Part shown: positions 7,348 through 62,256 of the stretch, one piece after another
How positions within the stretch are numbered: the stretch's first letter is position 1
Layout of the letters: the number at the start of each line of letters is the position of its first letter
Assembly: GCA_003279855.1 (NCBI GenBank)
Contig: QCGO01000001.1
Coordinates: 310,001-374,000, forward strand
Length of the DNA stretch: 64,000 nt
From: Prochlorococcus sp. AG-388-E21
GTDB taxonomy: Bacteria; Cyanobacteriota; Cyanobacteriia; PCC-6307; Cyanobiaceae
Direction of reading: 5' to 3'
Notes under the pieces: generated by a model
The model's database searches: none
What the model saw: only the letters and a program-made list of their open reading frames with translations
What the model was told of the DNA's origin: nothing
Position numbers and translations under genes: made by a program

Positions 7348-8187
7348 ATGAAAGAAAACAAGAAAACGCAATTTCCTATGAATAAAACTTTATCAAAAAT
7401 AAATAAGAAGTTTTTGGAACTAAAGAAAAGCGATAAATTAGCATTGATGCCCTTCATAATGGCAGGTGATCCTAATATTGAGACTACATCCGAGATTTTA
7501 TTAAAGTTGCAAGAAAAGGGTGCAGATCTTATTGAATTAGGAATCCCTTATAGCGACCCTCTTGCTGATGGCCCAATCATTCAATTATCAGCTTCTAGAG
7601 CATTAAAGTCAGGAACTACATTGAAAAATGTTATTCAATTATTAGAGTCTTTGAAAGATAAGTTGCATATTCCAATAATACTTTTCACTTATTTTAATCC
7701 TGTATTAAATTTTGGACTTGAGAATTTTTGTGAATTGGCATCTAAAGTAGGAGTCTCAGGATTAATAATTCCCGATCTTCCTTTGGAAGAAGCATATAAA
7801 TTTTCAGAAATAATTAGTTCTTATTCTATAGACTTGATATTATTAGTTGCTCCTACTACTCCCTCTGAAAGAATGAAAATTATATCTAATAATACAAAAG
7901 GTTTTACTTATTTAGTAAGCGTAACAGGAGTGACTGGAGAGAGAAATAAAATGGAAAATAGAGTAGAGAATCTTATTACTAAATTACAAGAAATAAGCAT
8001 TAATCCTGTAGCGGTTGGTTTTGGAATATCTTCTCCTGAACATGTTTATAAAGTTCGTAAATGGGGGGCAGATGGAGTAATTATTGGTAGTGCTTTTGTT
8101 AAAAGAATCTCTAATAGTAAAGAAAAGGAAGTTGTTAATCAAATTGGTAAATTTTGTGAAGAAATGCGTAAAGCTGCTGATCAATAA
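7348..8187 (+). CDS. trpA: Tryptophan synthase alpha chain
   Basis: Splits indole-3-glycerol phosphate into indole and glyceraldehyde 3-phosphate; indole passes to the beta chain. It is a TIM-barrel protein of 279 residues. The catalytic Glu and Asp are both present in ELGIPYSDPLADGP, and the phosphate-binding loops TGVTGER and VGFGIS are intact. The ATG used gives a 10-residue Lys-rich leader; the ATG at 7378 would give a length closer to other TrpA proteins. The gene is followed by a strong hairpin shared with the convergent abrB. Confidence 0.95.
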   Translation: MKENKKTQFPMNKTLSKINKKFLELKKSDKLALMPFIMAGDPNIETTSEILLKLQEKGADLIELGIPYSDPLADGPIIQLSASRALKSGTTLKNVIQLLESLKDKLHIPIILFTYFNPVLNFGLENFCELASKVGVSGLIIPDLPLEEAYKFSEIISSYSIDLILLVAPTTPSERMKIISNNTKGFTYLVSVTGVTGERNKMENRVENLITKLQEISINPVAVGFGISSPEHVYKVRKWGADGVIIGSAFVKRISNSKEKEVVNQIGKFCEEMRKAADQ

Positions 8188-8225
8188 ATGTAATTAAAAA
8201 AGTAATTTTGTATGTTTATTTTATT

Positions 8226-8252
8226 AAAAAACCCCTTATGAAAAGGGGCTTT
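8226..8252. terminator. Bidirectional intrinsic terminator between trpA and abrB
   Basis: CCCCTT (8232-8237) and AAGGGG (8243-8248) form a six-pair stem with a five-base loop. Six A residues precede it on the plus strand, so on the minus strand the hairpin is followed by a run of U: a good terminator for abrB. On the plus strand the trailing CTTTAATTCTT is a weaker U-tract for trpA. This is the clearest factor-independent terminator in the window. Confidence 0.85.
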
Positions 8253-8285
8253 AATTCTTATAATTAGAATAATATTTTATGGGAA

Positions 8286-8636
8286 TTATTCCGAGGGTAA
8301 TAATCTTATTTGTTTTCTCCCAAGCTTTATTTCAAACTCATCACCTGCTTTTAAGTCTAAAAGTGCTGTATATGCTTTCCCAATCAAAAGATTCCCATTA
8401 CCTTGAACTGTCGCTATATAACTTAACTTTCTACCACCCTTACCAATACCTGCAACTCCGGTATCTCCGAGGTTAACGCCTTTTGCTTCAAGAAGTGCTT
8501 CATAAAAAGCAGTGAAATTTAAACGTTCGCTTCCATTTTTTTTCGTGGAAACGTATCCACATGCACGAACAAGATCTGACTTGCTAATATCACCAAGTTC
8601 TTTAACTTTAGCAAGGAGATCACTACCACTTAGCAT
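8286..8636 (-). CDS. Cyanobacterial AbrB-like transcriptional regulator (cyAbrB)
   Basis: A 116-residue protein of the cyanobacterial AbrB clade. The N-terminal part (MLSGSDLLAKVKELGDISKS onward, to about 55) is the conserved cyAbrB helical region with LVRACGYVS. The AbrB-like DNA-binding fold is at the C-terminus (about 73-114), the reverse of Bacillus AbrB. Family members act as global regulators linking carbon and nitrogen status in other cyanobacteria; the targets here are unknown. It is convergent with trpA and stands as its own transcription unit. Confidence 0.88.
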   Translation of the reverse strand: MLSGSDLLAKVKELGDISKSDLVRACGYVSTKKNGSERLNFTAFYEALLEAKGVNLGDTGVAGIGKGGRKLSYIATVQGNGNLLIGKAYTALLDLKAGDEFEIKLGRKQIRLLPSE

Positions 8637-8732
8637 AATAAATTAATAAAAAGTTATTCTTAATTAACATAGCAATTAGTGAGTAATTTGTGCAATTATT
8701 AAGCATGTATTTATTCAATTAGTTATCTTTTA

Positions 8733-9005
8733 ATGATGGAAAAATTTATAGTATTTGGGAAGTATTGTGACGATGCAATTAACAAAAGGGAACCATTTCG
8801 TAAAAATCATCTTGATAGACTTGGGGATTTAAAAGATAGAAACATTTTAATTACTTTAGGACCTACTAAATGTACAAAATATTTATTTGGTATTTTTAAC
8901 GCTTATAGTGAAAATGAATTAAGACAATTAATAGAGAAAGATATTTATTGGAAGGAAGGTATATGGATTGATTTTGATATTTATCCATGGATCCAAGCAT
9001 TTTAA
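8733..9005 (+). CDS. YciI-like protein
   Basis: A 90-residue small protein with the ferredoxin-like alpha/beta pattern of the YciI family: an initial FIVFGKYCD strand, a conserved RxxHLDRL helix (RKNHLDRLGDL), a LITLGPTK strand, GIFNAYSENELRQLIEKD, and a closing strand WIDFDIYPWIQAF. YciI proteins include lactone- and dehalogenase-type enzymes and many uncharacterised members; the conserved His is at about residue 25. No specific substrate can be given. It stands alone, divergent from abrB by 96 bases and followed by a 214-base AT-rich gap. Confidence 0.72.
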   Translation: MMEKFIVFGKYCDDAINKREPFRKNHLDRLGDLKDRNILITLGPTKCTKYLFGIFNAYSENELRQLIEKDIYWKEGIWIDFDIYPWIQAF

Positions 9006-9219
9006 AAAAGTATATATTAAAAAACGATAATCTTTTAGCTAATTTTATTTATAATTGGAACGTAAATTATTTTTTAAAATTGTAAAAATAAGGTTTTTAT
9101 TTATAAAAAAAATTAAAAATAAATAATAGAATTTTCAATAAAAAATGCTTCTTAAACACTATATATATATGATTATTTAAGTTAGTTTTTAAATAAAAAA
9201 ATAGCTAAGTTTAAATATT
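9006..9219. other. AT-rich gap between convergent genes, no feature seen
   Basis: The 214 bases between the YciI-like gene and the convergent unknown gene are almost pure A and T, with long A and T runs and a TATATATAT stretch near 9161-9169. I found no reading frame of useful length, no tRNA-like structure and no GC-clamped hairpin. Termination here, if it occurs, does not use a classical hairpin. Confidence 0.5.
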
Positions 9220-9540
9220 TTATTTACTACTGTCTTTTTTTATTTGGTTCACTAAGGAGTCGATATCTAATTGATTATATGGGTGGGTTTCATTTATTCC
9301 TTGAGAATTGGTCGGAATATTGTTTAGCCAATTTTGTTCTATCTTTATGAGATTTTTAACAATATTGAAAATACCTCCTTTTTTATAAAATTCTTTAACT
9401 TTTGAAGTGATTTCGGAGGTTCGGCTTGATTTGAGATTTAATTCATTAGCTAGATCTTTTTGTGTATATCCATGGGATTTCAACCAATCTTTAATAAAAG
9501 ATATAAGTTCTTTTTCTTCTCCCTGTGATAGTTTACTCAT
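9220..9540 (-). CDS. Hypothetical protein with possible HTH
   Basis: A 106-residue protein that I do not recognise. Residues 10-50 read like a helix-turn-helix: a first helix ELISFIKDWLKSHG, then YTQKDLANELNLKSSRTSEI, where QKDLANELN resembles the HTH of phage-repressor-type regulators. The rest is helical, then a flexible Asn/Ser-rich tail. Its ATG overlaps the stop of the DUF1232 gene by 4 bases, so the two are probably co-translated, downstream of the sigma-factor gene. A DNA-binding role is inference. Confidence 0.6.
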   Translation of the reverse strand: MSKLSQGEEKELISFIKDWLKSHGYTQKDLANELNLKSSRTSEITSKVKEFYKKGGIFNIVKNLIKIEQNWLNNIPTNSQGINETHPYNQLDIDSLVNQIKKDSSK

Positions 9541-9911
9541 TTAACAAAAGGGAACAATTTATTAAGTTTCCTTTCTGCTCTTGCTCTTATTGCAGGAGTC
9601 ATATATCTACTCCATATACTTAAAACTGCAGTGAGAGCAACAAAGTCATCACTGTAACCTACTAAAGGCATAAAGTCAGGGAATAGATCAAATGGCATTA
9701 TTAAATAAGCGAGTGCGGCCATTAAGGAAACTCTTACTTGTGTTGGAGTAAAAGGATCGAGAGCCATTTCTAGAACTTCTAAAGCTGGTTTTGCAATAGT
9801 TCTACCAGCTCTTATTAAGATTTTTATAATGATATTTTCATCTAATGATGAACTTTCTAAAACCTCCGCATCATAAATTTTTTCTTTGTCTTTGTAATAG
9901 CTATCATTCAT
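9537..9911 (-). CDS. YkvA/DUF1232 family membrane protein
   Basis: A 124-residue protein with the DUF1232 core at about 45-100: SLMAALAYLIMPFDLFPDFMPLVGYSDD, where the aliphatic helix followed by P-DLFPDF-P-GYSDD is the family signature. One or two short membrane helices are expected. The N-terminus is acidic and soluble. The function of the family is unknown. It overlaps the next gene by 4 bases and starts 28 bases after the sigma-factor stop, so the three may form one transcript. Confidence 0.8.
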   Translation of the reverse strand: MNDSYYKDKEKIYDAEVLESSSLDENIIIKILIRAGRTIAKPALEVLEMALDPFTPTQVRVSLMAALAYLIMPFDLFPDFMPLVGYSDDFVALTAVLSIWSRYMTPAIRARAERKLNKLFPFVK

Positions 9912-39564: not shown

Positions 39565-40467
39565 ATGAAAAAAAAGTTATTGCTCTTTGTATTTTCTTTT
39601 CTAATATTTCTCCCTGCAAATTCTTGTAAAAGGACTGCGTTTGAAAAAGAAACTAACAAAGAAGTAATTTTGGCAAGTTTTACAGTCCTGGCAGATATTA
39701 TTGAAAATGTTGCTAAAGATGAGTTTGTCGTTAAATCAATTACTAAACCAGGAGTTGAAGTTCATGGTTATCAGCCAACTCCAAGTGATCTTATAAAAGC
39801 TTCCAAAGCCTTTGTTTTTATTGATAATGGATTTGGATTTGAATTGTGGGCTGAGAAATTTGTTTCAAACTTACAAATTAAGAGAGTAACTATTTCAAAT
39901 AGATTAGAACCGATTTTTATAAGTGAAGATTTCTATAAAGGTAAACCTAATCCTCATGCGTGGATTTCTCCTAAAAGGGGAATGATTTATGTAGATGTTA
40001 TCGTTGATTCTTTATCAGAATTAAAACCATCGGAAGCAGAATCATTTAAAAATAACGGACAATCTTACAAGAATAAAATCGCTAAAATAGATAAAGATTT
40101 TTCACTTTTTATTAATAATCTTGAGAAAAATAATAGGTATCTAGTAACTTGTGAAGGAGCATTCTCTTATCTCACAAATGATTACGGATTAAAAGAAGCC
40201 TATTTATGGCCAGTTAATGCTGAAAGTCAAATTACACCGAAAAGAATGGCAAGAACAATTTCTTTGGTAAAAAATAAAAATATCCCATCGGTCTTTTGTG
40301 AAAGCACTGTAAGTAACGAATCACAATTGGTTGTTGCCAGTGAAACAGGAGCAAAGTTTGGGGGAGATCTTTTTGTTGATTCCCTTTCTCAAGATAATAA
40401 GAGTGCTAATACTTATTTAAAAATGCTTCAACATAATTTGACTCTTATTAAAAAAGGCCTTAATTAA
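39565..40467 (+). CDS. mntC: Metal ABC transporter substrate-binding protein, Mn-type
   Basis: A 300-residue cluster A-I (ZnuA/MntC/PsaA) binding protein. From the ATG at 39565 it opens with a basic, hydrophobic signal that ends in ANSC near residue 21, a plausible lipobox. The four metal ligands read H67 (VEVHGYQ), H131 (NPHAWISP), E197 (TCEGAFSY) and D272 (FVDSLS); a Glu at the third site is the manganese-type set, where zinc ZnuA has His. It also lacks the His-rich loop of ZnuA. An upstream in-frame ATG at 39478 lies inside the previous gene and would bury the signal peptide, so I reject it. Confidence 0.87.
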   Translation: MKKKLLLFVFSFLIFLPANSCKRTAFEKETNKEVILASFTVLADIIENVAKDEFVVKSITKPGVEVHGYQPTPSDLIKASKAFVFIDNGFGFELWAEKFVSNLQIKRVTISNRLEPIFISEDFYKGKPNPHAWISPKRGMIYVDVIVDSLSELKPSEAESFKNNGQSYKNKIAKIDKDFSLFINNLEKNNRYLVTCEGAFSYLTNDYGLKEAYLWPVNAESQITPKRMARTISLVKNKNIPSVFCESTVSNESQLVVASETGAKFGGDLFVDSLSQDNKSANTYLKMLQHNLTLIKKGLN

Positions 40468-61830: not shown

Positions 61831-62256
61831 TTAGTGCATTTTACAGGGCATCCATTGTTCACCCATTTTATGCGCGCCGATACATCCATATTCTGATGCG
61901 GCTTTTTCGGCATCCTCTTTTGTTTTAAAAAGGCCAGGCATCAGAGTCTCTTTTTTGATTATTGAAGTCTTTTCATTAGGAATGTGAATCTCATGACTAT
62001 GTGATTTAGGAGAATATTCCCATAGTCCCATAGTTGTAATTCCAGCAGAAATTATTCCCATGCCAACTATTGATAAATTTACTATTCCCATAGCAACAGC
62101 ACCAAAAGAAAAAACACCCATTGGCACTACTCCAATACTTATAACACCCATTGGGACTATTCCAATAGAAACGATACCTAAGGGAGCAATACCGAAGGCA
62201 AATTTTTTTGGTTTTGTTCCACAATGCTGACTCTCTTTATTATTAGTTATTCCCAA
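61831..62256 (-). CDS. Glycine pentapeptide-repeat protein with DUF3721-like C-terminus
   Basis: A 141-residue protein I do not recognise as a whole. Residues 22-81 are twelve consecutive five-residue units of the form G-[IVA]-x-x-[hydrophobic], alternating PM-ended and SI-ended types, which should form a repeated beta structure rather than a usual membrane helix. Then comes a His-rich linker (SHSHEIHIP, 85-93) and a C-terminal segment with CIGAHKMGEQWMPCKMH that fits the short DUF3721 motif with its WMPC. The start is TTG; the gene is flanked by the exonuclease and hisS genes on the opposite strand. Confidence 0.65.
   Translation of the reverse strand: MGITNNKESQHCGTKPKKFAFGIAPLGIVSIGIVPMGVISIGVVPMGVFSFGAVAMGIVNLSIVGMGIISAGITTMGLWEYSPKSHSHEIHIPNEKTSIIKKETLMPGLFKTKEDAEKAASEYGCIGAHKMGEQWMPCKMH

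Follow-up and report, generated by a model that had tools for sequence, protein, structure and literature searches.

A conserved Prochlorococcus protein joining a glycine pentapeptide array with a methionine ladder to a DUF3721 tail, and its possible role in handling copper or a similar metal at the membrane

The stretch of DNA analysed here, referred to below as the window, is a 64,000-nucleotide segment of the genome of Prochlorococcus sp. AG-388-E21. It carries a small gene on the minus strand whose product divides into four recognisable segments following its first ten residues. The gene and its segments are as follows.

61831..62256, minus strand: the 141-aa gene, a GLTT array joined to a DUF3721 domain, with a TTG start at 62256 and its stop codon at 61831-61833
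62203..62226, minus strand: residues 11-18 (HCGTKPKK), a Cys and basic cluster before the array, recognised from orthologue conservation
62014..62193, minus strand: residues 22-81, twelve five-residue units of which 11 are Gly-led (PF01744, E-value 1.1e-16, 60.5 bits against a gathering cut-off of 21)
61930..62013, minus strand: residues 82-109, a variable and partly His-rich linker (dN/dS 0.277 over residues 81-108, the highest of any segment)
61834..61929, minus strand: residues 110-141, the DUF3721 tail (PF12518, E-value 4e-15, 55.7 bits against a cut-off of 27)

The 141-aa ORF is a genuine gene and is strongly conserved in Prochlorococcus. Its TTG start is common to 79 of 80 Prochlorococcus loci, the remaining match beginning at residue 6, and the dN/dS values calculated by segment from 12 same-length orthologues are 0.06 for the array, 0.18 for the tail, 0.22 for the N-terminus, and 0.28 for the linker. 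Such strong purifying selection indicates a real gene under selection, with the array as its most constrained part. Across 47 orthologues, residues H11, C12, G13, K15, P16, and K17 are invariant before the array, as are C125, H129, M131, W135, M136, C138, and H141 in the tail, where P137 is retained in at least 90%; we took tail conservation from these orthologues, the DUF3721 search pattern itself demanding several of the residues counted. The His-rich stretch (SHSHEIH) and WMPC tail that the earlier note described are both present, and the number of linker His residues differs among orthologues. The gene is flanked by a DnaQ-like exonuclease gene and hisS (neighbour names assigned by eye), and no metal gene was seen among the ORFs adjoining it, which counts against the copper reading developed below. 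At other loci (L177 9810-10100, L179 9387-10085, and L025), GLTT-DUF3721 genes are frame-split or carry internal stops.

The array and the tail are members of two existing Pfam families, neither with a known function, which the earlier note had missed. The GLTT score rises to 64.5 bits when the array is searched alone, and the tail covers model positions 1-32 of the 33 in DUF3721. The view that the array is not of the classical A(D/N)Lxx type was borne out, as neither the whole protein nor the array matched PF00805 at an E-value of 1 or lower; the Pentapeptide_2 family (PF01469) likewise stayed below its cut-off of 26.4 bits, scoring 12.2 on the whole protein and 15.5 on the array. Beyond Pfam, the best E-values were 0.16 in PHROGs, 0.11 in NCBIfam (far below cut-off), and 0.25 against PDB sequences. 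A phage origin was also considered and rejected, the seven viral-contig stretches that matched our search pattern including no relative and the phage records giving no match. No paper on GLTT or DUF3721 was found in the open-licence literature searched, which omits most subscription journals.

The array had been described as twelve consecutive G-[IVA]-x-x-[LIMF] units. Twelve five-residue units do cover residues 22-81, but Gly leads only 11 of them, and the exact pattern fits 9 of the 12, with units 9 (which opens with Ser62), 10, and 12 deviating. None of 20,000 shuffles of residues 19-82 placed 11 Gly of 12 at a period of five, and the window protein, with its 11 Gly at that period, has at most 4 at periods of 3, 4, 6, 7, or 8. 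Unit positions 2-4 are mostly I/V, V/I/A, and P/S, and there are no charged residues from after K18 up to E80. The 11 Gly are invariant in the 47 orthologues, as are the five array Met at residues 36, 46, 56, 66, and 76. Homologues without the Gly periodicity were absent among these orthologues; the more distant homologues were selected for Gly and cannot test this point.

The ten-residue super-period proposed from the window sequence proved real and held generally across 72 distinct arrays, one of them the window's, these being the ones out of 82 that could be anchored on their first unit. Met is the fifth residue of units 3, 5, 7, 9, and 11 in 63, 69, 71, 71, and 71 of the 72 arrays, respectively, and 10 of the 15 exceptions are His, all confined to units 3 and 5. 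In the even units the fifth residue is chiefly Ile, Ala, Leu, Val, or Phe, with Trp frequent in unit 12, and the last residue of unit 1 is Leu in 52 of the 72 arrays, followed by Thr and His. The arrays were retrieved by searching for spaced Gly, with a profile or a pattern, which makes the regularity of their Gly circular; no Met ladder was built into that pattern. One array among the 82, that of L218 on the minus strand, turned out to be a conventional A(D/N)L pentapeptide protein that the search pattern had picked up. Besides Gly, the ten-spaced Met is the most regular residue of the array, a feature that the earlier note did not report. Exchange between Met and His is the behaviour expected of metal ligands, and its occurrence at fixed sites is easier to understand if the ladder residues bind metal than if they serve packing, although the ladder Met could be conserved for packing alone.

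We generated predicted structures for the protein with AlphaFold2. With an alignment of the 47 orthologues (74-94% identical), the array had a pLDDT of about 42 and no fold, and the tail, with a pLDDT mostly about 80, was predicted to form a helix (residues 113-122) and two strands (128-131 and 134-137). The array alone, modelled without an alignment, gave one 52-residue helix with a mean pLDDT of 66, blocks reaching 86, and a pTM of 0.35. At 52 residues this helix exceeds the length of a single transmembrane span, and helix is a frequent default of models built from one sequence. Neither model placed strands in the array, where both are of low confidence, and the confident transmembrane helices that the earlier note had named as evidence against its proposal of a small beta-solenoid or membrane-inserting protein were not obtained in the models. 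The single-helix model would count mildly against a solenoid. A fold comparison of DUF3721 over 31 chains was uninformative, returning one row (Z 2.1 over 29 residues).

The composition of the protein fits membrane association, judging from its hydropathy and the basic patch before the array: the GRAVY value of residues 20-79 is 1.77, and the 19-residue hydropathy first reaches 1.6 at centre 27 and does so for the last time at centre 67, with a maximum of 2.34. These sixty uncharged residues, with basic residues before them and a hydrophilic tail after, would suit a structural membrane protein, i.e., a Gly-packed transmembrane helix bundle with a small extracytoplasmic tail whose metal-related neighbours are incidental, and the predicted helix with its well-scored blocks points the same way. 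However, that helix comes from a single sequence, at its excessive length and low pTM, and the same array modelled with its orthologues gave no fold; periods of 5 and 10 mismatch helical repeats; and the Met/His ladder and the gene neighbours would be left unexplained. We regard such a purely structural protein as improbable.

Turning to distribution, 39 of 194 cyanobacterial genomes gave a GLTT match (26 of them outside the window's family) and 13 a DUF3721 match (all inside it); a larger draw found GLTT in 99 of 386. Within the Prochlorococcus/Synechococcus family, 105 of 121 genomes carry GLTT and 108 carry DUF3721, not always together. In a one-per-genus set of 32 genomes, all selected for having a GLTT match, we read the two domains as sharing one frame in 29, the exceptions being G226, where they lie in different frames, and G245 and G247, which have no DUF3721 match. 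The two parts thus do not always occur together, which settles a question raised in the earlier note: GLTT occurs without DUF3721 outside the family, and some family genomes have one alone. Outside the family, 20 of the 21 GLTT proteins in our set carry at least three His after the array. The tail is therefore exchangeable, with a possibly chelating tail as the rule.

DUF3721 is also encoded next door. The GLTT gene has a DUF3721 gene immediately upstream on the same strand in at least 30 of the 47 GLTT-centred family loci (29 genera); 31 were counted, one of which (L177) is a fragment of its own split gene, and the number is a lower bound in that over-long ORF starts hide a DUF3721 beside GLTT in L204, L209, L220, and L223. 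An apparent signal peptide opens many of these partners, a lipobox-like motif occurs in 14 of 31, and three or more His lie within the last 30 residues of 29 of 31. The DUF3721 domain of the upstream partners is, from these features, probably exported, and, by analogy, the window protein's tail may lie on the same side. At L176 (8345-9496), a porin-like protein with a His/Met-rich N-terminus is encoded divergently to a DUF3721-GLTT pair.

Outside the window's family, 28 GLTT loci from 14 genera (33 loci minus 5 without a GLTT ORF by the search pattern) were scanned with nine copper-related query proteins. A copper match lies within 3.5 kb of GLTT in 8 of the 28 loci and 5 of the 14 genera, and the other 20 loci have no copper neighbour within that distance. 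Counted per gene, 20 of 203 genes near GLTT matched versus 1 of 300 further out, genes and loci not being independent. The loci divide into 3 of 13 discovery loci and 5 of 15 fetched later; the queries were picked after the discovery loci had been seen (petJ after a replication locus), and independent replications are few, with L251 and L260 coming from genera already represented by discovery loci L181 and L184, and a single genome supplying both L254 and L255. Gene order is cytochrome c - GLTT - DUF1775 - CopCD in L181 and L251, and in L184 and L260 GLTT sits in a DUF411 - multicopper oxidase - heavy-metal ATPase context. The cytochrome gene beside GLTT in L255, a locus which also carries metal-ABC-type genes, is a petJ equivalog at 136.9 bits against a cut-off of 135; the cytochrome c of L181 falls below it at 118.3. 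As a single case, a GLTT protein on Nostoc edaphicum plasmid pNe_5 (L271 6977-7186) is encoded near cydAB, cytochrome c oxidase, and feoB.

The strongest copper context is the order GLTT - petR - petP, found in L190, L254, and L258, three genomes from as many genera. Directly downstream of GLTT in these lie genes for a PF03965 (PetR-type) repressor, which begins 30-73 bp beyond GLTT, and for a membrane protease (M48 above and M56 below cut-off). PF03965 was matched in 24 of 27 genomes searched, in 23 of these 24 as a single match, and in 21 it lies away from GLTT. Judged from family, copy number, and pairing, the genes beside GLTT appear to be PetRP, which PMC7896320 and PMC13421787 describe as a copper-responsive switch between plastocyanin and cytochrome c6. 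Synechocystis Slr0601 or Slr0602 may be a GLTT protein, in which case published PetRP regulon data would connect the family with copper. The adjacency of GLTT to petR-petP and to petJ outside the family would also suit a metal-independent partner of photosynthetic electron carriers, e.g., a plastocyanin/cytochrome c6 helper co-regulated through PetRP. Such a partner strikes us as very unlikely, given that picocyanobacteria retain the protein while PF03965 is absent from all 33 of their genomes searched, and that the tails would go unexplained. The same absence means that the best copper link is not directly transferable to the window's own group.

Inside the family, none of the 47 picocyanobacterial GLTT-centred loci has a copper-query match within 3 kb of GLTT; the copper-ATPase query did match in L213, L219, and L237, no closer than 3.8 kb to GLTT, and the proteins there may be other P-type ATPases. 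Copper-type genes instead accompany DUF3721 without GLTT. On contig C4 of the window genome (L248), a DUF411 gene (8516-9034) is followed after 24 bp by the genome's second DUF3721 gene (9059-9280, 73 aa) whose product has an exported-looking N-terminus. The DUF411 protein matches PDB entry 6wis (3.1e-28), listed as a DUF411 protein, which we take to be the soluble copper protein CopG; no paper on CopG with DUF411 was found in the literature searched. A DUF411 gene is present in 6 of 10 GLTT-free DUF3721 loci (L240-L243 and L245-L250), 3 of the 6 also having a multicopper oxidase gene; the ten loci were not picked for copper neighbours, and the six with DUF411 come from two genera only. In another family genome (G335), about 0.1 kb separates a PetJ-like cytochrome gene (L236 14617-15285) from a GLTT gene that lacks a tail, at a locus that was fetched for its ZnuA.

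Two further observations concern the window genome. The L248 genes form a possible operon (7755-9541) encoding an 80-aa protein, a 159-aa membrane-type protein, the DUF411 protein with a Met/His-rich end, the DUF3721 protein, and an 86-aa membrane-type protein. On contig C7 (L249 9078-9595), a third DUF3721 gene (82 aa) is followed by a gene for an 89-aa membrane-type protein that resembles the 86-aa protein by eye, suggesting a repeated two-gene unit.

In several genera, by contrast, the fused form has zinc-type genes around it. Among one-per-genus genomes, ZnuA is no more than 10 kb away from GLTT in 5 of 32 (random mean 0.65, with 9 of 20,000 trials reaching 5) and from DUF3721 in 7 of 30 (random mean 0.90, with none of 20,000 trials reaching 7), under a simplified placement null that used rounded genome sizes, treated contigs as one circle, and ignored the shared ancestry of gene order. 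These counts omit seven weak ZnuA rows that are N-terminal pieces of frames already counted, and the placement test is independent of the fact that L191 and L192 were fetched after their ZnuA neighbours had been seen and L231-L239 largely for theirs. Genes for ZnuB, ZnuC, a Zur-type regulator, and COG0523/CobW proteins occur in several of the GLTT/DUF3721-ZnuA clusters, a Fur-type gene adjoins GLTT/DUF3721 in other picocyanobacterial genera, and the GLTT-free DUF3721 loci L245 and L246 lie amid ZnuA, ZnuB, Fur, and CobW-type genes. The best PDB match of the Zur-type regulator is 7ne9 (2.1e-47), an entry named in the WH8102 Zur paper. The window has a ZnuA-family match of its own at 39667-40455 (G000:C1:349667-350455), 22 kb from the GLTT gene. 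A protein of about 317 aa with His-rich stretches and no Pfam or NCBIfam match is encoded at L180 6182-7132, and its relatives in L204, L206, L207, L215, L231-L234, and L245 are, like it, mostly beside znuA.

We scanned upstream regions with a 15-base Zur-box consensus. With this consensus, a match with at most two mismatches precedes 7 of 14 znuA genes (10 of 14 with at most three) and none of 30 GLTT/DUF3721 operons (3 of 30 with three mismatches), and the best match upstream of the window gene has 5 mismatches of 14, that of the window's own znuA-like gene likewise 5. Zur control as the whole story was consequently set aside, good boxes standing before half of the znuA genes scanned and before no GLTT/DUF3721 operon.

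The main rival to copper is accordingly a zinc-uptake accessory, in which the tail and its exported partner would collect Zn(II) for ZnuABC. The excess of ZnuA neighbours over random placement, the company of znuB, znuC, Zur-type, and COG0523/CobW genes, and the C2H2-like ligands in the tail all speak for zinc. Met, however, is a poor Zn(II) ligand, the Zur-like boxes with at most two mismatches seen before half of the znuA genes were not seen before the 30 GLTT/DUF3721 operons, the neighbours outside the family are copper genes, and the placement null is simplified as described. We consider this zinc role unlikely.

Metal homeostasis is the likeliest setting either way, with copper as our first choice: outside the family the array has copper genes for neighbours, and inside it tails without an array do. 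We judge the case about evenly balanced that the window protein deals with copper, perhaps as Cu(I), or with a chemically related transition metal at the membrane, the identity of the metal being inferred from the neighbours. The earlier note's suggestion of a metal role is thus backed by the gene neighbourhoods; its more specific proposal of a metal-sensing tail is not, as nothing found ties the tail to sensing and the tail resembles a ligand cluster. If the protein does handle copper, the uncharged Gly-pentapeptide array would be anchored in the membrane after its basic patch and would offer a Met ligand, or in some cases a His, once every ten residues. A tail rich in Cys, His, and Met (in picocyanobacteria DUF3721, elsewhere a plain His-rich tail) might then take up the ion or pass it on, in concert with the short and probably exported DUF3721 protein whose gene adjoins GLTT in many relatives. 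A more specific version, in which the array forms a narrow solenoid or membrane rod and the Met/His ladder serves as a linear Cu(I) relay to an interchangeable chelating tail, is a long shot in our estimation. Were it true, cyanobacterial membranes would possess a hitherto undescribed mechanism of copper movement or storage, and this in Earth's most abundant phototroph. Under the broader copper reading, two function-less Pfam families present in most sampled Prochlorococcus and Synechococcus genomes would gain a concrete, testable role, and a Met ladder with a ten-residue period would constitute an unusual metal-binding architecture.

Among known systems, the nearest by profile is the GLTT family itself, which matches over the whole array, although the GLTT word is absent from the window protein. 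Pfam describes the family by X-G-L-T-T units and includes animal members; the window units read instead as G-[IV]-x-[PS/A]-[M/I] with a ten-residue Met ladder. Any array with Gly at every fifth place would match this profile, and therefore shared descent with the animal members is not demonstrated by the match. With classical pentapeptide-repeat proteins (PF00805, the Rfr fold) the array shares its five-residue period, but it lacks their A(D/N)LXX signature and almost all of its positions are small or hydrophobic. The DUF3721 family (PF12518) is matched by the tail, and is found here mostly fused behind GLTT and also in small, exported-looking stand-alone proteins. The copper protein CopG (DUF411) shares with the window protein a presumed context only; it is a soluble, non-repeat protein. 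Lastly, the midge antifreeze protein is a soluble, disulfide-bonded solenoid of 10-residue coils with a Tyr ladder, and has in common with the array a Gly every five residues and a ten-residue period.
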